46,174 bases of DNA from a virus, in the IMG/VR virus record IMGVR_UViG_3300018083_000012, positions 1 to 46,174 of that record; one strand, given 5' to 3'. Positions 444-43,670 of this stretch are shown in pieces (position 1 is the stretch's first letter; the number at the start of each line of letters is the position of its first letter). Made by a program: the position numbers and the translations under genes. Below the pieces are notes generated by a model, which was given only the letters and a program-made list of their open reading frames with translations, did no database searches and was not told where the DNA came from.

Positions 444-899
444 TTAGTTTTTGGTTGCGAGCTGGGCGGCGATGGCGGCTTGCGCTTTTGCAAAGCCGGT
501 GAGTTCCGGTTTGGCCGGCGCGTTGGCTGCCGGGTTGGCGGGCTTCATCTCCAAAGCGGGGGCGCCTTGGCTGGCGACTATCGCGACGGACTTGGCGGCC
601 GCTGCGGTCTCGATCTGTGCGGGGACTAGCGCGAGCGCGGCGTTCAGCTCCGTGATCTGCGTGGTGTATTTGCTGACGGTCGCTTCGTGGACGGCCGCGG
701 CGACCGAGAGGGTGGCGATGCTGGCCTTGGCTGTGGCCAGGTCGGCTTGGGCTTGGGCTAGCTCGGTGCGGTTGGCTTCGGCGCTGGCTTCAAACTGCGC
801 GGGCATTTCCGCGAGTTCGGCGGTGATCGACGCGACTTGTGTTTCGAGGGCGGCGATGTGCGCGTTCGCCTTTACAACGTTGAAAAATGAGGTGGCCAT
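444..899 (-). CDS. Prohead scaffold-like coiled-coil protein (151 aa)
   Basis: An Ala/Glu/Gln-rich protein. Its first two thirds have heptad-like spacing with few Pro or Gly, as expected of a long coiled coil; a Pro/Ala-rich linker and a short helical tail ending QLATKN follow. It lies between the S49 prohead protease and the capsid gene, the position of the lambda Nu3 or gpO-type scaffold, which would assemble the procapsid and then be cleaved. Scaffold is inferred from position and composition, not from a sequence match. A TTGACT box (917-922) lies 17 nt upstream of the ATG, and there is no purine-rich RBS. Upstream is a family C repeat. Confidence 0.65.
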   Translation of the reverse strand: MATSFFNVVKANAHIAALETQVASITAELAEMPAQFEASAEANRTELAQAQADLATAKASIATLSVAAAVHEATVSKYTTQITELNAALALVPAQIETAAAAKSVAIVASQGAPALEMKPANPAANAPAKPELTGFAKAQAAIAAQLATKN

Positions 900-934
900 T
901 ATGAAGGCGGAAAAGAAGTCAACGGGACTGGGGG

Positions 935-972
935 AAAACGCTGAAACGCTGAAACGCTAAAAAGCTAAAAGG
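935..972 (+). repeat. Family C 8-bp tandem repeat (NGCTGAAA)
   Basis: Units ACGCTGAAACGCTGAAACGC then decayed GCTAAAA copies, upstream of the scaffold gene. Confidence 0.8.
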
Positions 973-1014
973 GGACGGCGTCGCTGGGACAGCTCGCCCT
1001 ACCTTCAGAGCAGG
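970..1014 (+). repeat. Family B repeat (GCTGGGACAGCTCGCCCTACC), partial
   Basis: Truncated 5' part; directly after a family C repeat and next to the protease stop. Confidence 0.7.
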
Positions 1015-1811
1015 TCTTCGATGTCGTCGACTAGGCTGTCGACGAAGCCGGCGATGATGGCGTCGGCTCCGGTGAAGACTTGGCCTTCGCAGGATTCGTC
1101 GGGGACGTTGCGGTTGGTCCGGACGGCGGTCTTGAATTGTTCGTGGATGGTGTCGACCTGGGCCTGGAACATCTTGCGCTCGTCGGTGGAAAGGGGGCGG
1201 AAGCTGGCGCCGGAAAGTTTGTATTTGCCGGCGCTGATCGCGTTGAATTTCACTCCCTCGTTTTCATACATGCGGCTCTTGTCCAAGAGGGCGAGGTAAA
1301 CTCCGACGGAGCCGACTTCGGCGCTTTCGGTGCAATAGAATTCTGATGCCTGGCTGGCGAGCCATAGGGCTCCGCTGCAGCACTCGCTGTCGGTGAAGCT
1401 CACGACGTGTTTGCTCTCGGCAAGGTTGGCGATGCGGCGGGCGGTCTCGGGGACGCCTGTGACGGTGCCTCCGGGGGAGCGGAAATCTAAAATGACTTTC
1501 TCGATGTTTGAATCGGCTTCGGCGACGGCCAGGGCGCTGTTGACGCTGTCCAGGTCGCAGCTCCCACTCATCATTTCCATTAGGGAAAGGTGCTTGCCGA
1601 TGATCCCGTAAATCGGGACGACCAGGGTGTGGGCGATGGTGTGTGGCTCCGCGGTTGGTGAATCGCCATCGATGAGGGCGTCCTGCGCGAATTCTCCGGA
1701 GAGCCGGCTGGCTAGGACGGATTCAATGGCCTGGAATTTGGCGTCGGTGATTACCCAGATTCCGCGGAGGACTTTGCTGAGGATGTGAGGGTAGTTGCTG
1801 GAGCTGGGCAT
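1005..1811 (-). CDS. S49 (SppA/ClpP-fold) prohead serine protease (268 aa)
   Basis: Lambda gpC-like peptidase of family S49, expected to cleave scaffold and capsid proteins during head maturation. Seen: a crotonase-like core with VILDFRSPGGTVTG (about 107-120), the nucleophile in CCSGALWLA (Ser146), GSVGVYLA (about 167-174), and AGKYKLSG, whose second Lys (198) fits the catalytic lysine of this Ser-Lys dyad family. The ATG at 1811 (MPSSSNY) is chosen over the in-frame TTG 21 nt upstream, because that TTG is part of the TTGACT box (1827-1832). The next gene is the scaffold, as in lambdoid head modules. Confidence 0.85.
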   Translation of the reverse strand: MPSSSNYPHILSKVLRGIWVITDAKFQAIESVLASRLSGEFAQDALIDGDSPTAEPHTIAHTLVVPIYGIIGKHLSLMEMMSGSCDLDSVNSALAVAEADSNIEKVILDFRSPGGTVTGVPETARRIANLAESKHVVSFTDSECCSGALWLASQASEFYCTESAEVGSVGVYLALLDKSRMYENEGVKFNAISAGKYKLSGASFRPLSTDERKMFQAQVDTIHEQFKTAVRTNRNVPDESCEGQVFTGADAIIAGFVDSLVDDIEDLL

Positions 1812-1826
1812 CGGGGATGCCCGACA

Positions 1827-1832
1827 AGTCAA
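1827..1832 (-). promoter_or_regulatory. TTGACT box, one of 17 (positions listed in Part 2)
   Basis: ATTGACT 15 nt before ATG 1811, with no Shine-Dalgarno between. Representative entry for the set. Confidence 0.6.
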
Positions 1833-1900: not shown

Positions 1901-2685
1901 TACCTACCGATTTGGAGGCCGTTCAGGCCGGCGTTGTAGGCTTCGGTGACTTCGGCGGTGGTTAGGATGCGGCTGTTCCAGAGGCAGACCTCGTCAATGG
2001 CGCCGTCGAAAAAGAACGTGTTGGCGGTCGCGCCGATGGTGAAGGCGCCTGTGCTGTTATGCACTCCGGTCGTGTGGGCGACGGTGTTCACTGTGCCGTC
2101 GTTGACCGAGATGCCGATCAGGTTGTTCGCGGCGTCGTGGAACACATAAACGAAATACCAGACGCCGGTGGTGGGCGTTCCGAAGCTGGTGGCCTCCCTG
2201 GTGACGCTGGCGAGGCCGTCGTCCGACACAATCCATTGAAGCTTGCCTGTCCCTGAATCGTAATGGACGCGCCAGGAGCGGTTCCCACTCGTGGTGCTCC
2301 AATGGGCCAAGGGAGTTTGACTCGATCCAATCGACGCAAATTTGATCCAGAGCGTTCGAGCGAAATCGTTGTTGGCGACCGAAATGTCCACGGAGTCGGT
2401 CTCGCTCAAGAATTCGCTGCTGGCGCTGGCAAACAAAGCGGCGTTGCCGACTTTGCCTGCGGCCTGGGAGACCGTCGCGTTGTCCTGCATCGCGTGCGGG
2501 GTGCCGGTCGGTTCCGAGTCGATCCGGGTGCCGGAGCCTTCCTCAAGCTGAAAGTAGGCGGTCAGGCCGACGTTGAGGGTCGAGGGGCTGCCGAAGGGGG
2601 AGATGATCGTCGCTGCGGCCGAGGCGGCGCTTACAAAAGCTAAAAAGCTAAAAAGCTGAAACGCTAAAAGGGGGATCCTGATCAT
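1900..2685 (-). CDS. Secreted LamG-like (concanavalin-type) surface or fibre protein (261 aa)
   Basis: A Sec signal peptide (MIRIPLLAFQLFSFLAFVSA) is followed by a single LamG/jelly-roll domain. The strands GLTAYFQLEEGSG, KVGNAALFASASSEFL and FFFDGAIDEVCLWNSRILTT, ending in AEVTEAYN, are the usual signature of Laminin_G_3 domains, which bind carbohydrates. Its ATG overlaps the stop of the 921-aa fibre gene (ATGA), so the two are translationally coupled. The signal peptide is encoded by a family C repeat (about 2636-2672), and the stop codon abuts a family A repeat. It may be an adhesin subunit of the virion or a protein exported by the host. The fold call is good; the biological role is inferred. 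Confidence 0.7.
   Translation of the reverse strand: MIRIPLLAFQLFSFLAFVSAASAAATIISPFGSPSTLNVGLTAYFQLEEGSGTRIDSEPTGTPHAMQDNATVSQAAGKVGNAALFASASSEFLSETDSVDISVANNDFARTLWIKFASIGSSQTPLAHWSTTSGNRSWRVHYDSGTGKLQWIVSDDGLASVTREATSFGTPTTGVWYFVYVFHDAANNLIGISVNDGTVNTVAHTTGVHNSTGAFTIGATANTFFFDGAIDEVCLWNSRILTTAEVTEAYNAGLNGLQIGR
2636..2672 (+). repeat. Family C repeat encoding a signal peptide
   Basis: AAGCTAAAAAGCTAAAAAGC then TGAAACGCTAAAAG. Read on the minus strand as LLAFQLFSFLAF of the LamG protein. Confidence 0.8.
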
Positions 2686-5447
2686 CGGTAGCCGATCAAA
2701 TAAACTTTGCCTCCGGCGGCGGTGCCGTCTCCGACTTGGGTGACGCTGAAGGTGATTTCGGCGTCGTCGGCGAGGGCGGTGTCGCTGATCACGGCGGGGG
2801 CGGCGGCGGTGGTGCTGGTCTTCTCGGTGTTGTCCAGGGTTAGGAGCGTGCTCAAGATGGTGGTGCCGGCTTCGAGGATGTCGATGGTGTAAGTCGGGCC
2901 AGTCGATTGCGCTGTTTTCAGCGAAGTGCGAACGGCGGTTAGGGTCATCGCATAGGGCATGCGGAAGGTGAATTTGGCCGTTCCGGTCGTGATGACGGTG
3001 GTCTCTCCGGAAATGGGGATGATCAGGGCCTCGACAATTCCCAGGGTGATGCGCTGCGCGGCGGCGGTGGTGTCGTCAATCAAAGCGCGGCCGGCGGCGG
3101 TCAAAGCGATTTCCTCGATGTCTCCGGCTCCGGAGGTGGAACGGCCGAGGACCTTGTCCGTGGCGCTGACGTTCTGAATCTTGGCGTAGGTGACGGCGTC
3201 GGCATCGATGCTGGCGGTGGGAACGGTGGCCAGAAGGGCCAGGGCGCCCAGGCCGAGGGTGGTGCGCTGGGCGGCGGCGTCGGCGTCATCGATGAGGGCG
3301 CGGCCGGCGGCGGTCATGGCGATTTCCTCGACGTCTCCGGCTCCGGAGGTGGAACGGCCAAGGACCTTGTCCGTGGCGCTGACGTTCTGAATCTTGGCGT
3401 AGGTGATCGCGTCGTTGTCCACGTTGGCGGTGGCGACCGTTGCCAAAAGAGCAACAGCTCCCAGGCCGAGGGTGGTGCGCTGGGCGGTGGCGCTCGCGTC
3501 GTCAATCAGGGCGCGGCCGGCGGCGGTAAGCGGGATTTCTTCGATGATGCCTGAGCCGGCTGTGGAACGTCCGAGGAGCATGTCCGTGGCGCTGACGTCC
3601 TGGATCCGGGCGTAGGTGACGGCGTCGTTGTCGATGTCTGCGGTGGCGATGGTGGTCTTGAGCGCGAGGGGGCCGAGGCCGAGGGTGGTGCGCTGGGCGG
3701 TGGCGTCGGCGTCGTCAACCAGGGCCCGGCCGGCGGCGGTCATGGCGATTTCTTCGACGTCGCCTGCGCCGGAGGTGGAACGGCCGAGGACTTTGTCCGT
3801 GGCGCTTACGTTCTGGATTTTGGCGTAGGTGACGGCATCGTTGTCGATGCTCGCAGTCGGAACGGTCGCAAGGAGGGCGAGTGCGCCCAACCCCAGTGTA
3901 GTCCGCTGGGCGGCGGCGTCGGCATCGTCAATCAAGGCGCGGCCGGCGCTGGTCAAAGCTATTTCCTCGATCACGCCGGCGCCGGAGGTGGAGCGGCCGA
4001 GGACTTTGTCCGTGGCGCTGACGTTCTGAATCTTGGCGTAGCTGACGGCGGCGGCGGTGATGTCCGAGGTGTCGACCGTCTTGGCGGCGGCGTCCTGGCT
4101 GCCGGCGGTGATGTGGGGAAAGCCGGTCCCGGTGGGGATCGTGCCGATTAAGCTCGCGATGGTGAGGGTGTTCGCGTTGCTGGTGAGCGTGATGTTCGCT
4201 CCGGCTTCAATCTGCCTGAAGGTCAGGTCCAGGGAGGACTTGGCCTTAAAAATCGGTTGGATCGTGGCGGAGCTCGTCCCGAGGTTCGAGCCGGTATTTA
4301 TTTCTCCGACGGCGCCGGTGGTGGCGATGACGAGGGCGGATCCGTTCGTGGAGAGGGCGATGTTGGCGCCGGCTTCCACATTGTGAGAAAGCGTCGGGTT
4401 ACCTGAAACTCCGCTTCCGTTTGAGACAGCCACTCCGATGCCAGCGGTGATTGTCCTGGCGCTGGCCGTTCCGGCGGCGGTGTGGGTGAGGAGTCCATCA
4501 GTCGAGTTGTTAGCCAGTGCCGCAAGGTCCGGATCATATCCTTGCACGTCCGTTCCAATCGCGAGGCCGAGGGTGGTGCGCTGCGCGGATGTAGTGGAAT
4601 CGTCAAGTAAGGCTCGGCCGACACTCGTAAGCGCAATTTCTTCAATGCTGCCTGCACCGGCCGTGGAACGTCCAAGAAGCTTATCGGTGGCGCTGATGTT
4701 TTGAATTTTCGCATAGGTGATGGCGGCGTCGGTGACGTCGGCGGTGTCGACCAGTTTGCTGGTCAGGTCTTCGACCGAGGAGGTGACGTGCCTGAAGCCG
4801 GTTCCGGTGGGCGGTGATCCGCCGGCGGCAGCGATGATTGTAATGTCCGAGGCGTTAGAAACAATCGTGATGTTGGCTCCGGCGACGATGCTGCGGAGCT
4901 GAAGATCAAAAGCTTCCTTCGCTTTGAATATTCCGTGGCCGTCTCCCACGTTGCTGGCGGTGTTGGTCTCGCCTGAAATAACGGCGGCGGCGACTTCGTC
5001 AACGTATCCCTTGGTGGCGGCGTGGTAGGTGTTGGTCGGGGCTCCGCTGAGTGTCAGGAAACCGGACATGGTGTCGCCGATCCGAAGGACGTAGCTGGGG
5101 AAAAGGCGGAAAACTGAGATCAGCTCGGTCAGGGGATAAATCTCGTCGTCATTGGGGACAGCGATGAGAAAGCTGTCCTGGGTGCGGCCGCCGACGGTGA
5201 CTCGGTAGTCTCCGGCCGTTAGGACGATCGAGAAGGCTCCCGAGCTGTCACTGGTCGCGGTCTGCTGGGTGGTGGTGACGATGATGTCCGAGCTGATGAC
5301 GGGGGTGCTTAACGGGGCGAAAACGATGCTGGTCACGCGGCCGGCTCCGGCGGCGCTCTGGACTGTGCCTGTGATCGTCGAGGCCTGGGCGGGCAGTAAA
5401 AGGGTCAGGAGGGTGAAAAAAGGGAGGGCGTGGCGTAGGAAAGGCAT
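2682..5447 (-). CDS. Tail-fibre-like protein with tandem 71-aa modules and a signal peptide (921 aa)
   Basis: Begins MPFLRHALPFFTLLTLLLPA, a clear Sec signal peptide. A carboxypeptidase-regulatory-like beta domain follows (ITGTVQSAAGAG to GDYRVTVGGR), then a shaft of about six modules with the phage-fibre motif GRSTSGAGDVEEIA / AGRAL(I/V)DDADA / QRTTLGLG. The C-terminal domain of about 100 aa, ending YLIGYR, is paralogous to that of the 268-aa gene at 6542-7348. The motif is common in phage tail fibres, so receptor binding is the likely role. ATG 5447 is preferred to the TTG inside the TTGACT box (5463-5468). ATGA overlap with the LamG gene. Confidence 0.75.
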   Translation of the reverse strand: MPFLRHALPFFTLLTLLLPAQASTITGTVQSAAGAGRVTSIVFAPLSTPVISSDIIVTTTQQTATSDSSGAFSIVLTAGDYRVTVGGRTQDSFLIAVPNDDEIYPLTELISVFRLFPSYVLRIGDTMSGFLTLSGAPTNTYHAATKGYVDEVAAAVISGETNTASNVGDGHGIFKAKEAFDLQLRSIVAGANITIVSNASDITIIAAAGGSPPTGTGFRHVTSSVEDLTSKLVDTADVTDAAITYAKIQNISATDKLLGRSTAGAGSIEEIALTSVGRALLDDSTTSAQRTTLGLAIGTDVQGYDPDLAALANNSTDGLLTHTAAGTASARTITAGIGVAVSNGSGVSGNPTLSHNVEAGANIALSTNGSALVIATTGAVGEINTGSNLGTSSATIQPIFKAKSSLDLTFRQIEAGANITLTSNANTLTIASLIGTIPTGTGFPHITAGSQDAAAKTVDTSDITAAAVSYAKIQNVSATDKVLGRSTSGAGVIEEIALTSAGRALIDDADAAAQRTTLGLGALALLATVPTASIDNDAVTYAKIQNVSATDKVLGRSTSGAGDVEEIAMTAAGRALVDDADATAQRTTLGLGPLALKTTIATADIDNDAVTYARIQDVSATDMLLGRSTAGSGIIEEIPLTAAGRALIDDASATAQRTTLGLGAVALLATVATANVDNDAITYAKIQNVSATDKVLGRSTSGAGDVEEIAMTAAGRALIDDADAAAQRTTLGLGALALLATVPTASIDADAVTYAKIQNVSATDKVLGRSTSGAGDIEEIALTAAGRALIDDTTAAAQRITLGIVEALIIPISGETTVITTGTAKFTFRMPYAMTLTAVRTSLKTAQSTGPTYTIDILEAGTTILSTLLTLDNTEKTSTTAAAPAVISDTALADDAEITFSVTQVGDGTAAGGKVYLIGYR
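3037..4050 (-). repeat. 213-bp tandem coding repeats of the fibre shaft
   Basis: Near-identical 213-bp units are visible. For example, the segment around gttctgaatcttggcgtagg recurs at about 3173, 3386, 3599, 3812 and 4025. Each unit encodes 71 aa. The repeats are diverged enough to count, but they could promote copy-number change or assembly collapse. Confidence 0.85.
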
Positions 5448-5486
5448 CGCGGATGCCGTGGAAGTCAATCGATTGAGACCTAGGAA

Positions 5487-5537
5487 TGTTTCCGGCGAGG
5501 GCGCCGAAAACTACGCCCGAGGCGGGCGTGCTCCCCC
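5487..5537 (+). repeat. Family A double-hairpin repeat
   Basis: Same orientation and sequence as the copy at 1851, between the beta-helix stop and the 921-aa fibre start. Confidence 0.85.
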
Positions 5538-5540
5538 AAA

Positions 5541-7348: not shown

Positions 7349-7384
7349 TCGAGGACGGTCTCGAAGTCAATGGGGGCTGCTGGC

Positions 7385-7428: not shown

Positions 7429-8964
7429 TCAGGCGGCGGCGGCGTGGGGCGGGGCCTCGGTTTCCTCTGGCGGGGGCATGGGCAAATTGCCGTTTGGTGT
7501 CGGCGGGTTCAAGAGGACGATGGCTTCCTGGATGGAAATGTCGAATTCCTTGGCCAGGTCCTTGGCGCGGGTCAGGTCGGCGCGGACTTCGGCCAGGCGC
7601 TGGGCGTCCACGTCTTCCCAGTAGGTGCCGCGGCGGCCGCAGGCTTCTTTGCGGGTCTTCAGGCCGAAGCGGACTTCCTGGATGTCGATGTCCGACTCAT
7701 ACTTCGCGTCGGCGGTCAGGCGGGCCGGCGGTTGGTATTCCCACATATACCAGTCGGGATCGGGGCGGACTTCCTTGCGCTCGATGGCCTTGCTCAAGGC
7801 GTAGCCGTCAAAGCGGCGGCAAACTTTCCCGACCATCTTCTGGCGTTTCTCGATGGTGCGGTTGATCTTGTCCACGATGACGCGCATCGGGGCTCCGCCG
7901 ACGTTGCTCGGGTCTAAGCAAAAGTCGAAGCTCCATTCCATCCCGCAAAAGGCGCTGCGGACGATCCGGTCTTCAAACATCTGTTGGTTGCTCGTGGGGC
8001 GGTCGCTGCGGAAGGCTTCGATCTTGGATCCGCTGCCTGCTCTGAAGCGGCGGATTTCTCCGGTCAATTTCTCGGTGGCGTTGGCGGTCTTCGCGCCGGT
8101 GTCGTCGTAGGTGGCCAGGCTGCCCATGACGGCCTTGGATTCGTCGATGTCTCCGGTCTCGTTGTTCTCCAGCAGGTAAATGGCGGCGGCGACCTTCTGC
8201 GCTACCAGTTCGAATTGGCGGCTCTCCTGGACGTCCTGCCAGTCGAAGATGGCGCTGACGAGGCTGGGGATCCCGCGTTTCTGGCCTCGGACCAGGGGCC
8301 AGAAGTTCAAGATCAGGTTGCGGAAGCTGACGTCTGTGAATTCGTGGGACGCAAAGTTGTCATCGCGGTAAATGCGGGCGGCGATGGGGCGGGTGTAGCT
8401 GTCCACGATGATGCCATCGATGATGGTCGCTCCGTCGTGTTCTCCGCCGATGACCACGTTCTGGTGGTTGCGGCTCCCGATCAAATGGCCAGGGATCACT
8501 TGGACAAGGGGTTTGCCGGCTTCCTCGGGGCTTTCGGTCAAGTAGAGGCCGATGTCGCCGTCGACTAAGTCGGCGATGATCAAGTGCTGGATCAGGTTGT
8601 CGTAATCGTAGGGGGCGCCTTCGAGGTCCATGTTCTTGTGCCACTCGAAGAGCCAGTTTTCGGCTTCGTTGCCGAAGCCGGCTTTGTCCCGGCCGTAATA
8701 TTGGGGGATGAAACTCGAGACGGCTAAGTTGGCTTGCTCAAGGCAGGCGCCTTGGATCGCGGGGAAATTCCAGAAGAGGTAACGCGAAATACTCATCAAG
8801 GTTCGCCGGCCGAGGTTGCTGACGTTCCGGTGGAAGTCCCGGTCCAGCATCGGGATGTTCTTGCGCTCGGTGGTCTGCGTGGCGGAGCGGATGAGGCTGT
8901 TGCTCTGCGAAATGTAGCCGGAGGAGGAGCGGCGGTCGGTGAATTTGTAGGCGGCTTGCGGCAT
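7429..8964 (-). CDS. Portal protein, lambda GpB-like (511 aa)
   Basis: Twelve-fold vertex channel protein for DNA packaging and tail attachment. Seen: an N-terminal SRYLFWNFPAIQGACLEQAN helix, DYDNLIQHLIIADLVDGDIG, then VIPGHLIGSRNHQN, WPLVRGQKRGIPSLVSAIFD and WSFDFCLDPSNVGGAPMRVI. This order and spacing are those of the lambda-portal family, in which the GxPxL and W-x-SNVGGAP segments are strongly conserved. The length is typical of the family. ATG 8964 (MPQAAYKF) is chosen because the longer TTG start lies in the TTGACT box (8980-8985). It lies downstream of the large terminase and connector-like genes, as in lambda. Confidence 0.9.
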   Translation of the reverse strand: MPQAAYKFTDRRSSSGYISQSNSLIRSATQTTERKNIPMLDRDFHRNVSNLGRRTLMSISRYLFWNFPAIQGACLEQANLAVSSFIPQYYGRDKAGFGNEAENWLFEWHKNMDLEGAPYDYDNLIQHLIIADLVDGDIGLYLTESPEEAGKPLVQVIPGHLIGSRNHQNVVIGGEHDGATIIDGIIVDSYTRPIAARIYRDDNFASHEFTDVSFRNLILNFWPLVRGQKRGIPSLVSAIFDWQDVQESRQFELVAQKVAAAIYLLENNETGDIDESKAVMGSLATYDDTGAKTANATEKLTGEIRRFRAGSGSKIEAFRSDRPTSNQQMFEDRIVRSAFCGMEWSFDFCLDPSNVGGAPMRVIVDKINRTIEKRQKMVGKVCRRFDGYALSKAIERKEVRPDPDWYMWEYQPPARLTADAKYESDIDIQEVRFGLKTRKEACGRRGTYWEDVDAQRLAEVRADLTRAKDLAKEFDISIQEAIVLLNPPTPNGNLPMPPPEETEAPPHAAAA

Positions 8965-9048
8965 TGCCCATGCCGGGCCAGTCAATCCGCGGGGGGCATG
9001 TCCCTTTTCTCTTCCTCAAATGAGGCGGGAAAAAGGGACTTGGTCCTT

Positions 9049-9484: not shown

Positions 9485-9508
9485 CCTCCGCGGTGGTTCA
9501 GTCAACGA

Positions 9509-11753: not shown

Positions 11754-11817
11754 GGGGAGGGGCGGTCAGTCAATTTGTCTGTGCGGCCGCGGTGGGGGCG
11801 TGGTAGGGTGCGCTCTT

Positions 11818-11970: not shown

Positions 11971-12582
11971 TCAGGAAGTTTTTAGCTTCTTCTCGTAGGC
12001 GTCGGCGAAGTCGCGCATTTTGGCGCAGATGTCGTCGACCAAACGTTTCCCGAAAATGCGGGCCTGGGCAGGGTCCATGCCTGCGACGGCCGTGGGGTAT
12101 TCGTTCTCTAATTTCTGGCGGAGGATCTTGATCTGCTCGGCGCAAATTCCCTGAAGCTCTGCGCTGACGGTCTTGGTCTCCATCAAGGTGCCGCTGGTCC
12201 GGTCGTTGATCAGCTTCAATTTTCGGTGGGCCTCAAACTTCACCTTGTTCCCCATCTCGCCGTCGGACCGTTCCTGGTAATATTTGAAGTTCCCGCGGAT
12301 CGTGGCCTCGAATTGGTATTTGCCGCGGATGGGCGGCGGGAAATAGCCATCATGGGCAAGCTGGCGGTGCCGGCGGTCGGTCAGGCCGGTTAGTTTGCAC
12401 AGCTCGGTGGCTACGATCGTGCGGGCCAGCGGCTCGGCCGGCTTCTTGGCTTCGCTCTGTTCGCTGGTCTGTTCGAGGAGTTCGAGTTCGGCGCTGGATA
12501 GGGGCTTCCCGCTTTTAACCTTGCGGATGATGTTGGAAATGTTCGCCTGAAATATCTTGGACTTGGCCTCGGCATCGATCAC
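11971..12582 (-). CDS. Terminase small subunit, Nu1-like (203 aa)
   Basis: Recognises the packaging site and recruits the large subunit. The centre carries a winged helix-turn-helix of the Nu1/MerR type (ATELCKLTGLTDRRHRQLAH, then DGYFPPPIRGKYQFEATIRG), with the wing sequence leading into FKYYQERSDGEMGN. The C-terminal half is charged and helical, for oligomerisation and large-subunit contact. It starts at GTG 12582 (MIDAEAKSK), with a TTGACT box at 12597-12602, 14 nt upstream. Position directly before a GpA-type terminase supports the call. Confidence 0.8.
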   Translation of the reverse strand: MIDAEAKSKIFQANISNIIRKVKSGKPLSSAELELLEQTSEQSEAKKPAEPLARTIVATELCKLTGLTDRRHRQLAHDGYFPPPIRGKYQFEATIRGNFKYYQERSDGEMGNKVKFEAHRKLKLINDRTSGTLMETKTVSAELQGICAEQIKILRQKLENEYPTAVAGMDPAQARIFGKRLVDDICAKMRDFADAYEKKLKTS

Positions 12583-12626
12583 GTGGATCGTGGGTCAGTC
12601 AATCCCCTGGCATTTTGTGCCAGGGG

Positions 12627-14170: not shown

Positions 14171-14259
14171 GAGCGCGGCGCGGGAGTCAATCGGTGTATT
14201 GGGTGAAGGGGGAAAACGGAGAAAGGTGGTCAGCACTCCCTTTCCATCGTCACTGTTGG

Positions 14260-23631: not shown

Positions 23632-23662
23632 GCTGATCCAAAGGGAGTCAACCCGAGGGGGC

Positions 23663-25446: not shown

Positions 25447-26024
25447 GTGATGGGGGTCAAAAGGAATTGGCCGCTGACGACGGTGAATAGGTGGAGGGAG
25501 CCGTCGGTCTGGTCGATCATGACGATCTGGTCCGTTCCGGCCTTCGCAGCGTAAAGGGCGCGGGCTTCATACTTCCCGAGGGCCTCGTCGGCGACGGCCG
25601 CGGGGACGGTGACGGGGGTGGCCAGGCGGTTGGTCAGGTTGACCACGAAAAGCATCTTCCAGTAACCCGAGCCGTTCAGGATCTCCAGCTCTAGGTCCTT
25701 GGTCAGGGGCGCGGTCAGGGCCAGGATCCCGGCGGTGTTGAGCGCAAGGTCGCCTTCGTGGATGTCTCCGTTGGCGACCAGTGAAACGGAGTTGAGTTCA
25801 GCTCCGCCGGCGGTCCCGATGGTGGCTTTGATGGAGGTCCCGGCGCCTGGGATGGTGGAAAGGGCGACGGATCCTCCGCTGGGGTTGGGCTTAACGAGCG
25901 TGATCGCAAAGCTGATGGTGTCTCCAAGCGCGAAGGGCGGGAGGGTGAAATGAGAATCAACGACCGAGCTCTTGCTGAGACGCTTGGTGGCGATGTTGGC
26001 TGCGAATTCTAAGGGGACGCCCAT
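25443..26024 (-). CDS. Fibre-associated / baseplate-like protein (193 aa)
   Basis: ATG 26024 (MGVPLEFAANIATKRLSKSS) is chosen; the TTG 21 nt upstream is in the TTGACT box (26040-26045). The protein is a beta-sandwich-like structure (FTLPPFALGDTISFAITLVK, NGDIHEGDLALNTAGILALT) ending VVSGQFLLTPIT. Located between a distal tail protein and a fibre and translationally coupled to the fibre, so probably an adaptor or chaperone. No family recognised. Confidence 0.5.
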   Translation of the reverse strand: MGVPLEFAANIATKRLSKSSVVDSHFTLPPFALGDTISFAITLVKPNPSGGSVALSTIPGAGTSIKATIGTAGGAELNSVSLVANGDIHEGDLALNTAGILALTAPLTKDLELEILNGSGYWKMLFVVNLTNRLATPVTVPAAVADEALGKYEARALYAAKAGTDQIVMIDQTDGSLHLFTVVSGQFLLTPIT

Positions 26025-26049
26025 TGCGGACCGGGCGCGAGTCAATGAA

Positions 26050-30875: not shown

Positions 30876-30912
30876 ATAGGGGCGAACGCGAAGTCAATCG
30901 GGGGCTGCGAAG

Positions 30913-30963: not shown

Positions 30964-30970
30964 GACAAAC

Positions 30971-31010: not shown

Positions 31011-31016
31011 AGGGCT

Positions 31017-31463: not shown

Positions 31464-31497
31464 GTGGAAACGGGGCGAGTCAATGAAGGGGCGGGAG

Positions 31498-32731: not shown

Positions 32732-32737
32732 AAAACA

Positions 32738-32990: not shown

Positions 32991-33235
32991 TGGCTCGGGG
33001 GGGTGGTCAGGACCTCGATCTGCGTGATCACTTGTTGGGCGATGTCCAGGTTGGATCCGCCTTGGGTGTCCACGAGTTCGTTTCGGGCGCTCTGGATGAG
33101 CATCCTCAGCGGCCAAAGCCAGGCTCTGACTTCGCGTTTGATCTTTGCGGTCGCGGGGTCGGGGACGGGGTAGCTCGTGATTACTTCGGCGATTGGGGTG
33201 CCGTCCTTGTCCAAAATGGTTTGTTTTCGGTCCAT
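32987..33235 (-). CDS. Small hypothetical protein (82 aa)
   Basis: MDRKQTILDKDGTPIAEVIT, then a basic helix (AKIKREVRAWLWPLRMLIQS) and DIAQQVITQIEVLTTPPSQ. A TTGACT box (33250-33255) lies 14 nt before ATG. No family recognised; it heads a short connector-type operon that follows the lysis-type genes. A family A repeat lies just upstream. Confidence 0.45.
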   Translation of the reverse strand: MDRKQTILDKDGTPIAEVITSYPVPDPATAKIKREVRAWLWPLRMLIQSARNELVDTQGGSNLDIAQQVITQIEVLTTPPSQ

Positions 33236-33284
33236 GTGGGACCGAGGTCAGTCAACGACGGATGAAAGGCGGCCGCGCTGGAAA

Positions 33285-34065: not shown

Positions 34066-34094
34066 TAACCAAAGAGGCCGCAGTCAACTCGGGG

Positions 34095-37100: not shown

Positions 37101-40100
37101 TGACGTCGTTTACGTTGATCGTCGGGCCGTTGTTGAATTGCACCTTAAACCCGTTTGTGCTGTGCAGGGTGTGGTGGTAGGTCATCGAGAATTTGTAGGA
37201 ATCTCCCGGCGCGATGTCCGTTAGTCCGACGGTGACAACTTCGGTTATTCCCTGGTGGCCGGCGATCTCGATGGGCAGGCTGTTGGTCGGGAAGGTCGGC
37301 TGGCTCGCGGGCAGAACGGTGACGACCACGGTGTCGGTGTTGGTCGCCTGGGCGGTGGTGGCTCGAAGCTGCAAAACATAGGAGCCGGAGACGGAAAATG
37401 TTGCGGTCGTGTTCGTGTGGTTGGCGTTGGCAAAGCTGACCGTTCCGGCTCCGGTGACTTTGCTCCAGGTAACTTGCGAGATGGCATTTCCCGTGGCGGT
37501 GGCGGTGCTTAGGCTTCCGGTCGCGGGCAAGGTGACGGTGAAGTCGGATCCTGCGTTGACCAAAAGCGGGACGGCCGCGTCGACCACGGAAATTAAAACG
37601 GTGGCGGAGGCTCGGGTGGCGCCGGAGTTGTCTGTCGCGACGGCGGTCAGGCTGTAGTTTCCACGTGGAACGTCGAACCAAAGGACGCCAAAAGGGGTTA
37701 GTGGGTCGGTGTTGATTAGGTTTCCTCCCTCGAAGAATTCAACCTTGGTGATCGTGCCGTCGCTGTCCGTGGCGGTTGCGGCCAGGACGATGTCCTCGCC
37801 TGCGTTAAAACTGGTTCCGGCAGCCGGCGCGGTCAGGGTAACGGCCGGGGCGACGTTGGGAACGGGGAGGACGGTGTAACTGACGCTGGTGGTGGTGTTT
37901 GAGCCGAGGTTGTCTGTGGCTTTGGCGGTGGCCAGGTGGGTCCCGACGCTGGGGGTGATGCTGACCGAATAGGGCGAGCTGGTGTCGGTGGAGAGCGTCG
38001 AGCCGTTATCGATAAACAAGACGCTGGCGATGGTGCCGTCCGGATCTGTGGCGCTGGCGACCAGGTTAAAGGTGACGGGGGCGGTGAAGGTGGCGCCGTT
38101 GGTGGGTGTGGTGAAGGCGACGGCGGGGAATTGGTTGGCCGCGGTGACGATGGCGTTGATCGTGGCGGAAACTCCGACTCCGCCGAGGTTGTCCGTGGCT
38201 TCGGCGCGGATGGTGTAGGTCCCGACGGGGACGCTCACGGCAAAGCCGTCATAGGGGGCGCTCAATTCTGTTGCTCCGAGCTGGGTGGCCTCGTGGTAAA
38301 AGCGGACGCTGACGATGGTCCCGTCGGCGTCGGTGGCGGTGGCGGCCAGGGCGAAGGTCGCGGGCGCGATGAAGGGCGTGTTGTTCGTGGGCAAGGTCAC
38401 GGTGACCACGGGGACGGCGTTGTTGTTTACGATGGCGTTGATCGTGGCGCTGCTGACGATGGCTCCGCTGTTGTCCGTGGCCTCGGCTCGGATGGCGTAG
38501 GTCCCGGCGGGGACGGCCGCGGCGCTCCCGGTGAAGGGCGAGCTGGTGTCGGTCCCCAGGAGGGTGCTCCCGTTGTAGAATTTGACGTTGGCGATTGTGC
38601 CGTCGGCGTCGGTGGCGGTGGCGGTGATGTTGATCGTGGCCGGCGCGATGTAGACGGTGGCGTCGGCTGGGCTCGTGATCGCTACCACGGGGAGAATGTT
38701 CACGGCTGGGGCGCTGACGTTGATCGTGACTGCTCCGCTGCTGTTGGTGTCTCCGCGGTCGTCCGTGGCGACGGCGGTGAAGCTGTAGTTGCCGGCGGCC
38801 GCTGAGGGGATCGAATGGGTAAAGGGCGAGCTGGTGTCGGTGGCCAGTAAAGTTCCGCCGTTGTAGAATTTGACGCTGACGATGGTTCCGTCGCTGTCGG
38901 TGGCGGTGGCGGCGAGCGGGATGGTGACGGGCGTTAGGAAGGAGAGGCCGTTGGTCGGGGCGGTTAGCGTCACGGTGGGGACGCTGTTGGGAACGACCAA
39001 GGCGTTGATTGCGATTGAGGTGGAGATTTCGCCTGAATTGTCGAGCGCGACGGCATGAATCGGGTAATTGCCGGCGGCGGCGGAGGCGATCTGTGCGGTG
39101 TAGGGCGAGGTGGTGTCGGTGCTGATCAGCGTTTCGGCGTTGTAGAAGCGGACGCTGGCGATTGTGCCGTCCGGATCAAAGGCGCTGGCGGTGATGGCCA
39201 GGGTGGCCGGCGCGATGAAGGTCTGCGTGTTGGTCGGGCTCGTGATGGCGACGACGGGCAAGACATTCGGAACGACGGGCAGGGGTAGGACATCGATTGT
39301 CACAGCTCCGCTGGCTCCGACCAGTCCCTCGTCGTCCGTGGCCTGGGCGGTGATCTGGTAAAGGCCGGCGGCGCCTGGCGTCCAGGTCAGGGCAAAGGGG
39401 GCGTTGGTGTCAGTCCCTATTAAAGTTTCATCGTGGAAGAAACTAACGCTGACGACGGTTCCCTCGGTATCGCTGGCGGTGGCGGCGATGCTCACGCTCG
39501 CGGCGGCGGCGAATTGCTGCGTATTGGTCGGGCTGGTGATGACGATTGTGGGCGGGACGTTGGGCAGGCGAAGGACGGAAATGGCGACCGAGACCATGGT
39601 CGTGGCGCCGGCGTTGTCGGTTGCGATCGCGTCCAGGACGTGCGATCCAGGTGTCATCAGTGGAAGCTCCGCGGCGTAAGGGGCATTGGATACTGTGAGG
39701 ACGTCCTGCCCGTTGTCCCGGAAAAGGACCGATGTGACTTGTCCTCCGTTATCGTCTGCGGTGGCTTCCATTGTCAGTGAAATAGGCGCGGTGAAGGTGG
39801 CGCCGTTCGTGGGCGCGGTGATCACCACGACGGGGGCGATGTTCATGGGGGGCGGCGGCGGGGGATCAATCGGCGGCGGTTGGATCGCGGGCTCGATCAC
39901 GAAGACTTTGAAGGTGTTCGTGCTGTAATAGGTTCCTTTCCGGCCGGTGACTTGGATGGTGTAGCTGCCCACGGCGCTGAAGGCGGCGGTGACGTTCGTC
40001 CCGGTGCTCGGGGTGAAGGTGACGACGCCTGGCGAGTCGATGTAGCTCCACTCGGTGCTCGTTCCGCTGGTGCTGCCGTCGACCGAGGTGATCGCGGATA

Positions 40101-40272
40101 AAAGCGCGTTGGTGGGAAAGCCGACGATGTAATTGTCGGTGACGTCGATCTGGACGCTCGATGAAAGGATGTTGCCGAAGCCGGAGGTCGACGGGCGCGG
40201 GGTTCGATAGGTCGCGGCCTGGGTGGCGCAAATGAGAAAGGCGGCGAAAAGAAAGGTGAGGGTCTTGGGCAT
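34138..40272 (-). CDS. Giant secreted multidomain protein: Ig-like array, CxxCH heme motif, helical C-terminal domain (2,044 aa)
   Basis: Signal peptide MPKTLTFLFAAFLICATQA, then a PKD-like domain and a Pro-rich linker (PPPIDPPPPPP). Eight tandem Big_9-type Ig-like domains follow, each opening like NVLPVVAITSPTNTQTF and carrying DxDGTI(A/V)SVxFY, plus another PKD-like domain. Next is a beta-rich segment (EIAGHQGITEVVTVG), then CTDCH at about 1178-1182, a c-type heme site, with HGLTQLQGEYVASYIRSLNV behind it as in cytochrome c helices. The last ~850 residues are helical with Trp/Tyr-rich turns, like alpha/alpha-toroid polysaccharide-active enzymes, though I see no named family. ATG 40272, TTGACT box at 40288-40293. 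Confidence 0.65.
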   Translation of the reverse strand: MPKTLTFLFAAFLICATQAATYRTPRPSTSGFGNILSSSVQIDVTDNYIVGFPTNALLSAITSVDGSTSGTSTEWSYIDSPGVVTFTPSTGTNVTAAFSAVGSYTIQVTGRKGTYYSTNTFKVFVIEPAIQPPPIDPPPPPPMNIAPVVVITAPTNGATFTAPISLTMEATADDNGGQVTSVLFRDNGQDVLTVSNAPYAAELPLMTPGSHVLDAIATDNAGATTMVSVAISVLRLPNVPPTIVITSPTNTQQFAAAASVSIAATASDTEGTVVSVSFFHDETLIGTDTNAPFALTWTPGAAGLYQITAQATDDEGLVGASGAVTIDVLPLPVVPNVLPVVAITSPTNTQTFIAPATLAITASAFDPDGTIASVRFYNAETLISTDTTSPYTAQIASAAAGNYPIHAVALDNSGEISTSIAINALVVPNSVPTVTLTAPTNGLSFLTPVTIPLAATATDSDGTIVSVKFYNGGTLLATDTSSPFTHSIPSAAAGNYSFTAVATDDRGDTNSSGAVTINVSAPAVNILPVVAITSPADATVYIAPATINITATATDADGTIANVKFYNGSTLLGTDTSSPFTGSAAAVPAGTYAIRAEATDNSGAIVSSATINAIVNNNAVPVVTVTLPTNNTPFIAPATFALAATATDADGTIVSVRFYHEATQLGATELSAPYDGFAVSVPVGTYTIRAEATDNLGGVGVSATINAIVTAANQFPAVAFTTPTNGATFTAPVTFNLVASATDPDGTIASVLFIDNGSTLSTDTSSPYSVSITPSVGTHLATAKATDNLGSNTTTSVSYTVLPVPNVAPAVTLTAPAAGTSFNAGEDIVLAATATDSDGTITKVEFFEGGNLINTDPLTPFGVLWFDVPRGNYSLTAVATDNSGATRASATVLISVVDAAVPLLVNAGSDFTVTLPATGSLSTATATGNAISQVTWSKVTGAGTVSFANANHTNTTATFSVSGSYVLQLRATTAQATNTDTVVVTVLPASQPTFPTNSLPIEIAGHQGITEVVTVGLTDIAPGDSYKFSMTYHHTLHSTNGFKVQFNNGPTINVNDVTFPPAQREAAFGGHFGGSSVIRCTNSGISGSILLNNALNTVRFIFSDTNSSPAAIRVLAFNFQHAGTNLIPTTKFSTEDPANWAPIYTNATLIATGRGIWYGTNLTGFQSDGTFASIRAKCTDCHAQDGRDLKYYNYSNKSIVERSKFHGLTQLQGEYVASYIRSLNVPSPGRPWNPPYQPGPGLDTNVLSAWAAGAGIGAVLDNDQLTISDIFGTVVTNTVITLTNNANPRQVRIAMQLPDWNHWLPSIHPLDAFGPAAFINSGSKLLTQYGGGTNGAAVGTQYLRNTLVRGSAASLANSKDILGPWILEQTSESSPYQLSISPKASRDPIGPGRKAYAAALWQVTKMWELHNEFELQNLAGANIVRPNYAAIYDAEYTASKTTYDNLAASSNELDLYSTIHQMMATTSMWEATSNLLYLNRALTWAETIISKATITDSNGKLNWPGAWASPYSATPIATELSTYQGTAELTRLARVILTTPSLSAFNTRATAIYNHIKTHVVNNILITRNGQAFMDTLLSRTNNGMSDKPALMLRNILNLSQCSTALGNSDNVTYAWPALVAHYASGMKDHFGTLARFVPHAGGLLWDKGFGLESPYTSIDTEHANRVPVALIELYRAGVTFDKSYLDGITSLLNSQIWDKSLTLPTSPRFVNFADGQNTAFRSYGPYLNGVVAYGWNWLAEWSPTTFAAMDKLLTKVNTTTGDRNDNAFYRIGLSAELARCATRLPNGAGIFSLAAEPRTQYTKRVYFDASPNILGLGLTTHGINNGSLQTHRYFSQAWYQVQLLIDAGNRSPDIFYSTSQAPVDWPYVEGILKDLQNLTPTNFALGGLFTLWKVKEIQANAYTYGPDRWNNGGWNPHTTTNPDSFVDSDFNPFWSNTPNATRKLITEACMRNWLYETERWPVALYYAGTSPLTTAAYIPVDNRDGGHFGDSIVSMFTPRNGKFYINNLGSGTGLAVDRNLQIAILNRCKLIWPAKNWTSLYPP

Positions 40273-40307
40273 CGGCTACCCAAGGAAAGTCAATGCGCCA
40301 CAAAAGG

Positions 40308-40358
40308 TGTTTCCGGCGAGGGCGCCGGAAACTACGCCCGAGGCGGGCGTGCTCCCCC
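40308..40358 (+). repeat. Family A double-hairpin repeat
   Basis: Upstream of the 2,044-aa gene. Continues through GACAAACC into a family C repeat, as the 30913 copy does. Confidence 0.85.
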
Positions 40359-40364
40359 GACAAA

Positions 40365-40402
40365 CCAAAAGCTGAAACGCTGAAAGGCTGAAACGCTGAA
40401 AT
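40365..40402 (+). repeat. Family C repeat
   Basis: Follows the family A copy at 40308 and ends at the tailspike stop codon. Confidence 0.85.
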
Positions 40403-43400
40403 TTACGGAGTTGGCTCGACTAGGAGCCAGTCGAAGGCGGCGGTGTCTCCGGCGTCCGATGATGTGACGGTAAAGCTGGTGCTGTTCACGCGGGAGGCGA
40501 CTCGGATGCGGCCGTTTAGGGTTCCCGCTGCAGCGGGGAAAACAAAGATGCGCGTGCTCGCGGTGATCGAGGTGTTCGCGATGGTCACTGTGCCTGTAAC
40601 GAGCGTGCTCTGGCCCATCCTCGCGTTGGATCCTTCCTTGATCCTCACGCCTTGGCCGGCGACTAGCGTTTCGATTGAGCCGTTCACGAGGAATTGCTTC
40701 GAGCCGTTCATCCCAAAGCCGTAAGTGAGGGTGTTGGTGGGGTCGCCGGCGGTGTGAACAAAAAAGGCATGGCCGGCGTGGTAGGCGGCTTCCAGGGGCC
40801 AGACGTGATATTGGGCATCGCGGTCGCTCGATGCGCCGAAGTAGTTGTCCTGGTGAATGCCGAACCAGCCAGGGCTCCCGTCGCGGTGCAAGGTAAAGGT
40901 GTAGCCGGTCTGCGCTCCCATGTCGACGTGCAGGGCGCGGTCGCCGGCGGTGTCGTCCACGGTCCCGGTCAAGTGGGCGGTCGGATAGTTGAATCCGGCG
41001 CCGGCGTTGAGGATGACGTTGTTGAAAGTCAGGAGGCGGCCGAGCGTGGATCGGACCATGTCGCTGCTCGAATTCCCCATGACGATGTTATCGCTGAAGG
41101 TTCCGTTTGTGACTCCGATATCGGCGCAAATCGTCGCGGTGGTCGAATTGTTCGTGATGTAATTATTCACGATCATGGCGCGGCCGGTGGTCGAAACGAC
41201 CAGGGGGCTTTGCGAGTCCGGGTAGCTTTCGATTTGGTTGCCACTCATCTGCAGCAGGGTGGTCCCGGTGATCTCGAATCCTCCGACGTTGTTGTCCTCG
41301 ATGCGGACCTTCCGGCCGGCGAGGGATGCTCCGCGGGGATAAACTCCGTCCGGCGCGATGGTGATGTTCCGGCTGAAGTCCACGGCGGCGGTTCCGCTAA
41401 TGAAGGCGATGGGGCGCTTGCTCATCGAATTAGTGATGATGAAGGTCGAATCGACCACCTTGATAAAACCTTTGCTCGCGGAAAACTGGAGGACCTTGGG
41501 CGGGTCGCCTGATCCGGCGGCTCCGCGGAAATCAAAGGTGACGTTGTCCACGGTCAGATTTTCATAAAAAATGGGTTCGACGTTCCGCATGGCGTATTCG
41601 TCTCCGGCGGAGCTGACCAGGGTCAGGTTGCGAAAGATCATATTCTTCATGATCGGCGGGCGCAGATATGTTTCGCTGGCGGGGATGGTGGCTCCGAGGC
41701 CGGCGGTGGTGCTCTCGTAATATCCTCCATCGAAGACCAGGCCGGTGCAATTGCCTCCGGGCCAAAGCGGGGAGCCGGTTACTTTGACGTAATTGTTGCG
41801 GACGATGGTGCCTGGGGCGCTGTTGATCTCGATGCCGTGTCCGGTCCCGCGGATGTCGTTCTGCTCGATCACGACGGAGCTGGTCATGTTGGTTACGATG
41901 AAGCCGGCTTGCACGTAGTCGCTGGTGGGGGTGTTGATCCGCAGGTTGATCGCTCCGTTGTCGCCGAAGGAGCCGGTGATGGTGTTGCCTCGGACCAGGC
42001 CGGGCATGTTGTAAATGTTCGTCCCGTTCAAGTCGGTAAAGCCGGCGTCTCCTGAATAGATGACGACGGAGCCGGTCGGGGTGTCCATGTCGATCATGAC
42101 GTTATCGAGAAATTTGAAGCCGGGCGCGGCGCTAAACAGGACGCAGATTTTGTTCGGGTTGCTCCCGATGAAGGTGTTCCCCTGGACAAGCGGGCTGAGC
42201 GGGCTGCGGTAGATCAGCTCCTTGTTGTAGGTGCTGAGATCGCCTGGCGTGATCGAGGCGTCTTCGTAAAATAGCCAGTCCAGCCGTTGGCCGACTCCGA
42301 AGGTGATTCCGCTTTTGACGAAGCTGTTGTTGATAAATTGGGGGTAGCTGCCGCTGCAGGAGATTCCCTTGCCGGTCCCGGTGTCGAAGAGGTTGTTGCG
42401 GACCACGACGTTGGTGGCCAGGTGGATGTTCACGGGGCTGCAAAAGCCGGTGACGTTGTCTGTCTCGGTCGTGGGGTAGAGGCCGGCCTGGCGGAAGGTG
42501 AAACCTTCCACGACGGTGTTGTGGGCGCAGATCGTGAACACGGAAGAAATGCGCGGGACGACGCCTTCCTCGGGGTTGTGGTAGTGCTGCTCCAGGGTGG
42601 CGCCGTCGGAAATCAGGGAGACGCTCCCGTTGGTGACCCAGATGCTGCAAACGAAATAAGGGCTGGGGCCGCGGGGGACAAAAACTTTTCCGTTGAATTG
42701 CTGTTTGTGGTGGACGGCTTGCTGGAAGGCGACGGTGTCATCGGTGAAGCCGTCGCGGACGGCGCCGTAGCCGAGGACGGTGTCCTGGCCGTTCTCGTCG
42801 AAGATTTGCAGGTTGGAAAAGGCTTTGCCGTCCAGGGGCGATAGATAGCCGGTGTACCAGTCGCGGGCTTGAATTCCGCCGATGCTGAAGTTTGTCACGG
42901 CGCCCAGGTCGATAAGGTATCCGGTGTTATTCGTGGATCCGGGGGTCTCGAGTCTTCCTCGCAATTTCAAATTCCAGATGGCGCCGTTGGTCGTTCCCTC
43001 GGGGACGGTGATCAATGTCCAGCTCGCGGGCTGCAATCCTTCAAAGTGGAGGCCTCCGCCGGGGGCGCCTAAGAGGGCGACGTTGCTCCGCATGGTGATC
43101 GGGTCGTTGATCGGGTCGATGGCGGTGTCGGCGGTGATCCAGACGGTTCCATGGCCTCGGGTTGAAACGTAGGAAATCGCGGCGTTGATGGTCGCGTTGT
43201 TGATCACTCCGCCAAACCATTGCGGGTAGACGTCGGAGTTGTCCTCCAGGCGGCGGATGCGGCCGACGTTGTTGTTGGGCGTGATGATGGTGCCGGCGTT
43301 GTCGTCCTCGATGCCGAGCGGGTCCACGTAAAAGCGGCCTCCGCCTCCGTCGTTGGCGGTCAGGTAGCCGACGAGCTGGTAGCCGGTGGTCGAGTTGGTC

Positions 43401-43633
43401 GCGGGCATCGCTCGAAGGGCGGCCATTGTGGGGACGGTCAACAAATTGGTGACGGTGCCGAATTGGGCGTCAAGGTTCGAGAAGTTCGTGTTGATGATCT
43501 GAAAGGCGCGGCGGATGACGTCGCCGGTCATGTCGTTGGCGCTGGCGCCGACGTTGACGGCGGTAATGGCGGCGTGCGTCGGGGACGAAAGGGCGAGGAG
43601 CGTTAAAAGGGGGAGGAGCTTGAGCGTGGGCAT
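40403..43633 (-). CDS. Right-handed beta-helix tailspike-like exported protein (1,076 aa)
   Basis: Signal peptide MPTLKLLPLLTLLALSSPTH. The region from about 100 shows AAISYVSTRGHGTVWITADT and, from about 230, QAVHHKQQFNGKVFVPRG. This is the pectate-lyase-like superhelix start found in tailspikes. Long stacks of short beta turns follow (VVRNNLFDTGTGKGISCSGS, VVIEQNDIRGTGHGIEINSA, MIVNNYITNNST). The C-terminal part is a separate domain. It would bind or depolymerise cell-surface glycans; no catalytic residues can be named. ATG 43633 is chosen over the TTG in the TTGACT box (43649-43654). Confidence 0.7.
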   Translation of the reverse strand: MPTLKLLPLLTLLALSSPTHAAITAVNVGASANDMTGDVIRRAFQIINTNFSNLDAQFGTVTNLLTVPTMAALRAMPATNSTTGYQLVGYLTANDGGGGRFYVDPLGIEDDNAGTIITPNNNVGRIRRLEDNSDVYPQWFGGVINNATINAAISYVSTRGHGTVWITADTAIDPINDPITMRSNVALLGAPGGGLHFEGLQPASWTLITVPEGTTNGAIWNLKLRGRLETPGSTNNTGYLIDLGAVTNFSIGGIQARDWYTGYLSPLDGKAFSNLQIFDENGQDTVLGYGAVRDGFTDDTVAFQQAVHHKQQFNGKVFVPRGPSPYFVCSIWVTNGSVSLISDGATLEQHYHNPEEGVVPRISSVFTICAHNTVVEGFTFRQAGLYPTTETDNVTGFCSPVNIHLATNVVVRNNLFDTGTGKGISCSGSYPQFINNSFVKSGITFGVGQRLDWLFYEDASITPGDLSTYNKELIYRSPLSPLVQGNTFIGSNPNKICVLFSAAPGFKFLDNVMIDMDTPTGSVVIYSGDAGFTDLNGTNIYNMPGLVRGNTITGSFGDNGAINLRINTPTSDYVQAGFIVTNMTSSVVIEQNDIRGTGHGIEINSAPGTIVRNNYVKVTGSPLWPGGNCTGLVFDGGYYESTTAGLGATIPASETYLRPPIMKNMIFRNLTLVSSAGDEYAMRNVEPIFYENLTVDNVTFDFRGAAGSGDPPKVLQFSASKGFIKVVDSTFIITNSMSKRPIAFISGTAAVDFSRNITIAPDGVYPRGASLAGRKVRIEDNNVGGFEITGTTLLQMSGNQIESYPDSQSPLVVSTTGRAMIVNNYITNNSTTATICADIGVTNGTFSDNIVMGNSSSDMVRSTLGRLLTFNNVILNAGAGFNYPTAHLTGTVDDTAGDRALHVDMGAQTGYTFTLHRDGSPGWFGIHQDNYFGASSDRDAQYHVWPLEAAYHAGHAFFVHTAGDPTNTLTYGFGMNGSKQFLVNGSIETLVAGQGVRIKEGSNARMGQSTLVTGTVTIANTSITASTRIFVFPAAAGTLNGRIRVASRVNSTSFTVTSSDAGDTAAFDWLLVEPTP

Positions 43634-43670
43634 CGGCGATGCCCAGGAAGTCAATTCGAGTCAGTTGGGG

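Follow-up and report, generated by a model that had tools for sequence, protein, structure and literature searches.

Phages can mark or control many of their gene starts with one short signal or one factor, and the element described here, a TTGACT box 14–17 nt upstream of 17 start codons, at most of them with a hairpin at or beside the start, is best introduced beside such systems. It was found in IMG/VR virus record IMGVR_UViG_3300018083_000012, a 46,174-nt stretch of DNA analysed at its full length (hereafter the window), which is the genome of a temperate phage that encodes an integrase, a terminase, a portal protein and a head protease. Nearest in kind are the start-associated sequences (SAS) of cluster K mycobacteriophages, in which one phage likewise carries copies of a short conserved sequence close to many of its start codons, along with inverted repeats (ESAS) near the start and a proposed role in gene expression. 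By our own reading the SAS, GGGATAGGAGCCC, contains the Shine-Dalgarno (SD)-like AGGAG, whereas the box here is SD-free, lies 14–17 nt away, marks late genes and comes with a hairpin whose sequence varies from gene to gene; the window holds no match to GGGATAGGAGCCC at two or fewer mismatches. In the initiator hairpin of the MS2 coat gene the start codon is also displayed in the loop and the stability of the hairpin sets translation, but that hairpin serves one gene with an SD, as against many genes, no SD and a common box here. In mycobacteriophage L5 the repressor binds stoperators, asymmetric sites of 13 bp. L5 and the window have in common numerous oriented sites within short gaps close to gene starts, together with a helix-turn-helix (HTH) regulator, a candidate one in the window, but stoperators have neither a fixed distance to the start codon nor a hairpin, both of which are present here.

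At the level of translation, the RegA protein of T4 is a single phage factor acting at the starts of ~30 mRNAs, through sites that are A+U-rich and unstructured, overlap or abut the AUG, and repress (PMC3014915). A single phage factor for many translation starts may be a shared feature, the factor here being putative, but structure, a distant box and late genes set the window apart, and its sites, like those of its relatives, are no RegA-type operators, being GC-rich and more structured than shuffles. At the level of transcription, the late promoters of the giant phages AR9 and phiKZ (AACA-N6-TA/G or TATG) are read by phage multisubunit RNA polymerases (PMC5312081). They resemble the box in being a very short late-gene consensus without host -35/-10 elements, and they keep a fixed distance from the RNA start. 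Unlike in those phages, no RNA polymerase gene was recognised here; the profile PF00940, for the single-subunit RNA polymerase of T7-like phages, matched none of seven phage records, with the control genomes silent too, and AACA-N6-TA/G is not enriched in the window (17 matches, 15.8 expected). Searches of one open-access library returned no report of such an element, subscription papers lying outside the search.

Results

A box at a fixed distance from late gene starts

All 17 boxes listed in the first-pass annotation lie at the coordinates it gave, on the minus strand of the window, and their spacing to the start codon is 17 nt once, 16 nt three times, 15 nt seven times and 14 nt six times. 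The window contains 25 copies of TTGACT, where shuffled sequence has 13.0 ± 3.5 and none of 100 shuffles reached 25; the minus strand carries 21 of the copies, including all 17 boxes 14–17 nt before a start codon. The pattern RTTGACW-N14-16-RTG gave 16 minus-strand and no plus-strand matches, with none on either strand for the reversed control. When all hexamers upstream of window starts were scanned de novo, TTGACT ranked first (14 genes, 0.3 expected, P 4e-19).

Relatives were sought by terminase in the class of a Pedosphaera metagenome-assembled genome (MAG), with matches in 64 of 384 genomes, the best ~30–36% identical; gene starts in them were taken from simple open reading frame (ORF) rules, and sites within one lineage are not independent. 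Across ~40 prophage regions TTGAC peaks before ATG/GTG, with 87, 65 and 38 sites at 14, 15 and 16 nt and ~15 at neighbouring gaps, a distribution with a sharp onset at 14 nt from TTGAC and a tail to 16–17. TTGACA, TTGACT or GTTGAC came out top of the hexamer scan in many of these regions. The box also stands before orthologous genes, at the protease gene in 10 relatives and at the large terminase gene in at least four. Box clusters were present, too, in prophages found via the HTH protein alone, from genomes without a terminase match (G138, G224), and 80 IMG/VR loci found by the HTH protein, some of them near-duplicates, carry 176 boxes on the strand of the HTH gene versus 21 on the opposite one. 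No clear box enrichment was seen in Verrucomicrobia phage P8625, whose terminase is distant. The first-pass observation of the box is thus both correct and general, and neither of the outcomes named there as a refutation was seen.

The boxes of the window and of 11 extended prophages form clusters over ~20–30 kb that keep mostly to one strand and to one sixth base, which is A in most prophages and T in the window and in two prophages of genome G137. Since most late modules use a single sixth base throughout, and since G137 carries T-type prophages (C11, C56) alongside mostly A-type ones (C15, C17), the box reader would travel with the phage. The comparison with host gene starts that the first-pass annotation had proposed also finds the box to be phage-borne: no peak at gaps of 14–16 nt was seen in 200 kb of each of two box-prophage hosts, and RTTGACT-N14-15-ATG occurs at 0 to ~15 per Mb, mostly below 10, in genomes of the class, far below its density in the 46-kb window. 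SDs are few in the two hosts as well (13–14% of ATG ORFs).

Sequence context of the box

The logo of 73 sites with a gap of 14 reads not-C, TTGAC, A (0.74), C (0.66), a C/G-rich spacer, GG (0.58, 0.73), Y (0.92) and then ATG (0.64) or GTG (0.36), with no TATAAT-like columns on either side. A sigma-70 promoter would have its -10 hexamer 16–18 nt past TTGACA and ahead of the gene; between 26000 and 45000 there is one site of this type (3.4 expected), and none at a box. The box is therefore not part of a standard promoter, as the first-pass annotation had argued, and a -35/-10 promoter was rejected for want of a -10 element. The agreement of TTGACA-N14-TG with the spacing of a -35 and an extended -10 'TG' was judged a coincidence, because no -10 follows and the RNA would start inside the gene. 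GC content from box to start is 0.62–0.66, higher than in the flanks, and there is no AT-rich region for melting.

A purine-rich SD is almost missing at the box genes of the window, as had been noted, with the gene at 9484 (CGGAGG) as the exception; a GGAG-like sequence 4–16 nt before the start was present at one of 103 box genes versus 59 of 287 other late-region genes, for which the choice of start is crude. The further claim, that the box is missing from genes which overlap the previous stop, is borne out by the window, where the gene at 23631 overlaps a doubtful ORF only; it fails in relatives, 18 of 103 box genes there overlapping the preceding ORF, often through GTGA overlaps at the protease gene. 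Altogether 32 of 103 box genes begin within the previous ORF or at most 18 nt from it.

A start-codon hairpin specific to each gene

Between the box and the start codon lies a leader with specific complementarity to the first codons of its own gene, and their pairing gives a hairpin with the start codon in or near the loop. This hairpin is new here, having been missed in the first-pass annotation, and it favours an RNA-level reading. It spans the start codon and is more stable than expected: for the 34 nt after the box, the stability Z relative to dinucleotide shuffles is -6.2 in the window and -11.2 in relatives, as against -2.2 at starts without a box. The control that we rate best keeps both halves intact and merely exchanges leaders among genes. 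It gave Z of -5.9 for the 17 window sites, -11.4 for 127 sites in relatives, -7.3 for 90 viral-contig sites and -14.9 for 323 distinct sites pooled, whereas 522 box-less starts from the same prophage regions gave -0.17; the loss of stability upon exchange means that every leader matches the gene it precedes.

Stems of at least 6 pairs starting 5–14 nt from the box start number 10 in the window, where 0.6 are expected. The surplus pairing joins positions -9 to -4 with +4 to +12, with none on the start codon, so that the start codon would on average lie in or beside the loop; several window hairpins pair the ATG itself within the 3' arm. Internal G-U pairs in stems number 22 versus 7.4 in swapped controls (A-C, 19 versus 14.5), and the sense strand folds more stably than the antisense strand, both of which lend moderate support to pairing in RNA. 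A fixed stem formed by the CC...GG consensus was rejected, as it shows no excess pairing.

The HTH protein as a candidate factor

The HTH protein put forward in the first-pass annotation stays a candidate for the box reader or its controller. Its family is present in 11 of the 12 mapped box prophages, nearly as widespread among them as terminase and portal, and it has matches in 52 of 369 genomes of the class. In the prophages whose maps were inspected, the gene lies at the start of the box cluster, close to the front of the late module. Boxes and strong HTH matches go together across 39 terminase regions, both being present in 18 and both absent in 13, with four mixed cases of each kind (Fisher P 4e-4, uncorrected for shared descent); one region scored as box-less, L076, has 11 boxes on the opposite strand. 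Profile comparisons give weak matches to HTH, sigma-factor and late-activator families, those to the last two coming from single members of the protein's own family (E 1e-4 to 0.08). They liken it weakly to sigma region 4 and late activators, and no match to a sigma-factor or late-transcriptional-activator profile lies above the curated cut-off. AlphaFold without an alignment gave a model too poor to use (pLDDT 42).

The recognition helix is TRAAVSKR-like in most A-type phages and KQAF in the two T-type lineages, with G078 (KQDF, A-type) and G035 (KQAF beside TTGACA) as exceptions, and a code relating helix to sixth base is only a lead. General autoregulation through a box before the HTH gene was dropped, as just two of 45 HTH genes in relatives have their own box; in several relatives the first box is at the next gene. 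Two similar regions, L196/L197 and L194/L195 (contigs C4 and C9 of genome G269), have the HTH gene and a single TTGACT box without a box cluster, and are possibly satellites or remnants.

The phage, its genome and its host

The window ends share 123 bp and IMG/VR contig L007, from another assembly, bridges them, from which we take the genome to be circular; L007 and L004 are the same phage as the window (99.99–100% identity). As single queries against IMG/VR, the tape-measure-like protein and the HTH protein of the window returned only copies of this phage. The host is probably a member of the Verrucomicrobiota, as suggested by the top phage match of the terminase, Verrucomicrobia phage P8625 (22%), and by an intergenic repeat present exactly in one genome examined, a Pedosphaera MAG.

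Several repeat families were noted. One, an intergenic module of 60 bp that contains two hairpins (GGAGCACGCCCGCCTCGGGCGTAGTTTYCGGCGCCCTCGCCGGAAAC), has nine copies (1850–1909, 5486–5545, 23260–23319, 26048–26107, 30912–30971, 33283–33342, 40307–40366, 43675–43734 and 44866–44925); its core is also found in the Pedosphaera MAG, and it resembles a REP-type repeat common to phage and host. Copies of a second intergenic family of ~49 bp (GGTAGGGCGAGGCTGTCCCAGCCCGCCGCCGCGAACCC) start at 7373, 18917, 27334, 31492 and 34090, three of them directly upstream of a box. An 8-bp unit, AAACGCTG, forms short, mostly intergenic arrays (928–987, 2635–2686, 23663–23722, 25367–25442, 30972–31031, 32731–32790, 40367–40418 and 44926–44977), and eight copies of a palindromic unit, GTTGGTGATTCGCCAACT, lie at 20944–21207 within ORFs overlapping on both strands. 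Three very large proteins, unusual for a phage, have signal-peptide-like N-termini (34138–40272, 2044 aa; 40403–43633, 1076 aa; 2682–5447, 921 aa), and the 2044-aa and 921-aa proteins have internal repeats. A DNA methyltransferase and ParB-like pair lies at 21958–23339, both families being in all or most box prophages.

Table 1. Boxes, hairpins and the candidate regulator in the window (hairpins as 5' arm-loop-3' arm)
Feature	Position	Strand	Remark
TTGACT box	917..922	-	17 nt before ATG 899
TTGACT box	1827..1832	-	15 nt before ATG 1811 (head maturation protease)
TTGACT box	5463..5468	-	15 nt before ATG 5447
TTGACT box	7365..7370	-	16 nt before ATG 7348
TTGACT box	8980..8985	-	15 nt before ATG 8964 (portal)
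TTGACT box	9500..9505	-	15 nt before ATG 9484; gene also with GGAGG, without hairpin
TTGACT box	11768..11773	-	14 nt before GTG 11753 (large terminase)
TTGACT box	12597..12602	-	14 nt before GTG 12582 (small terminase-like)
TTGACT box	14185..14190	-	14 nt before ATG 14170 (HTH protein)
TTGACT box	23646..23651	-	14 nt before ATG 23631
TTGACT box	26040..26045	-	15 nt before ATG 26024
TTGACT box	30892..30897	-	16 nt before ATG 30875
TTGACT box	31478..31483	-	14 nt before GTG 31463
TTGACT box	33250..33255	-	14 nt before ATG 33235
TTGACT box	34082..34087	-	16 nt before ATG 34065
TTGACT box	40288..40293	-	15 nt before ATG 40272 (2044-aa protein)
TTGACT box	43649..43654	-	15 nt before ATG 43633 (1076-aa protein)
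Start-codon hairpin GGGCAT-CCCCG-ATGCCC	1806..1822	-	
Start-codon hairpin GGCAT-CCGCG-ATGCC	5443..5457	-	
Leader hairpin TCGAG-ACCGTC-CTCGA	7349..7364	-	ends directly before ATG
Start-codon hairpin CGGCAT-GGGCA-ATGCCG	8959..8975	-	
Start-codon hairpin CGATC-CACGT-GATCG	12576..12590	-	
Start-codon hairpin TTTGGATC-AGCAT-GATCCAAA	23622..23642	-	
Start-codon hairpin GCGCCCG-GTCCGCAA-TGGGCGT	26017..26038	-	
Start-codon hairpin TCGGTCC-CACAT-GGACCGA	33227..33245	-	
Start-codon hairpin CTTGGGTA-GCCGA-TGCCCAAG	40264..40284	-	one G-U pair
Start-codon hairpin TGGGCATC-GCC-GATGCCCA	43627..43645	-	
HTH protein, 226 aa	13490..14170	-	candidate late regulator or box reader; homologues in 11 of 12 box prophages

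Discussion

The reading that we favour, tentatively and at somewhat short of an even chance, is that of a phage-specific, SD-independent start signal for late genes, most likely acting in the mRNA and read by a phage factor. The gene-specific pairing of the leader hints at an mRNA that includes it, in which case the box would be transcribed too and would most simply be a translation start signal or switch. It can be hypothesized that UUGAC(A/U), a leader of ~14 nt and the hairpin form one unit reaching just past the start codon, with the 5' arm in the leader, the 3' arm made of codons 2–4 of the same gene and the start codon within or adjoining the loop. This unit would stand in for the SD on late genes, most of them for the virion; a phage-specific factor, produced as early expression gives way to late, would recognise UUGAC beside the hairpin and enable the ribosome to start, such that the late genes are translated together and not earlier. 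The fuller proposal, that the phage itself encodes SD-independent late translation through a UUGAC tag and a start-codon hairpin built from the gene's own codons, with a phage-specific factor as its reader, in bacteria that hardly use SDs, is possible but less likely than not.

Several observations weigh against a signal in the mRNA. A stem of at least 6 pairs is missing at about seven of the 17 window sites, the strand asymmetry in folding is moderate overall and only slight when relatives are taken alone (-11.4 versus -10.5), and compensatory change between orthologues does not maintain the stems better than in slid controls, so that stability, not one fixed stem, seems to be selected. The conserved candidate protein has an HTH of the DNA-binding type, not a known RNA-binding fold. 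Moreover, the GG ~11 nt past the box does not move along with the start codon when the latter lies 3 nt farther off, as in gap-17 sites, and with the pyrimidine/purine that comes next it looks like a transcription initiator. These last points belong to a close rival, a real if lesser possibility, in which the box is a phage-specific late promoter: the sigma-region-4-like HTH protein would bind TTGAC and recruit RNA polymerase, and RNA would start at the GGY/R initiator 14 nt past the box, giving an mRNA that is leaderless or has a leader of 1–3 nt. Such a promoter would account for the fixed spacing, its sharp lower limit at 14 nt and the missing SD, and it sits well with boxes that lie in the late module, mostly on one strand, and with an HTH family near the head of that module, with its weak sigma and late-activator matches. 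However, the leader, for all its specific pairing with the codons, would then be left out of the mRNA; the would-be melting region is GC-rich and without a -10; and GTG, the start codon at 36% of gap-14 sites, is unusual for leaderless genes in many bacteria. To our knowledge, no promoter geometry has its sole box at -19 to -15.

An operator, with an HTH repressor on many oriented boxes silencing the late genes of the prophage in the manner of L5 stoperators, would explain the many copies near gene starts in one orientation relative to transcription and the conserved HTH gene, but a repressor site needs neither the fixed 14–17 nt spacing nor SD loss nor gene-specific hairpins, and we consider it improbable. 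A host signal, with TTGAC used by Verrucomicrobiota ahead of genes of their own and copied by the phage, would suit the scarcity of SDs in the hosts; with no peak in the two hosts while their prophages peak, and with the low density of the motif in the class, this idea is close to refuted and far less probable still. Of the interpretation offered in the first-pass annotation, the non-standard nature of the box, its phage origin and the HTH candidate have thus held up, and its two alternatives, a late promoter and a non-SD translation signal, are both still standing.

How start codons are chosen in SD-poor bacteria and phages, which are common, is an open question. Here, a compact signal stands before many different late genes of each phage, is not seen in the two sampled hosts, excludes the SD, and comes with a leader matched to the codons of each gene. 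If it acts at the level of RNA, it would be a phage-made means of translating the late genes together; if at the level of DNA, it would be a promoter geometry without, as far as we know, an earlier description. Seen in viruses and prophages of Verrucomicrobiota, the signal points to an unrecognised way of switching on late genes.

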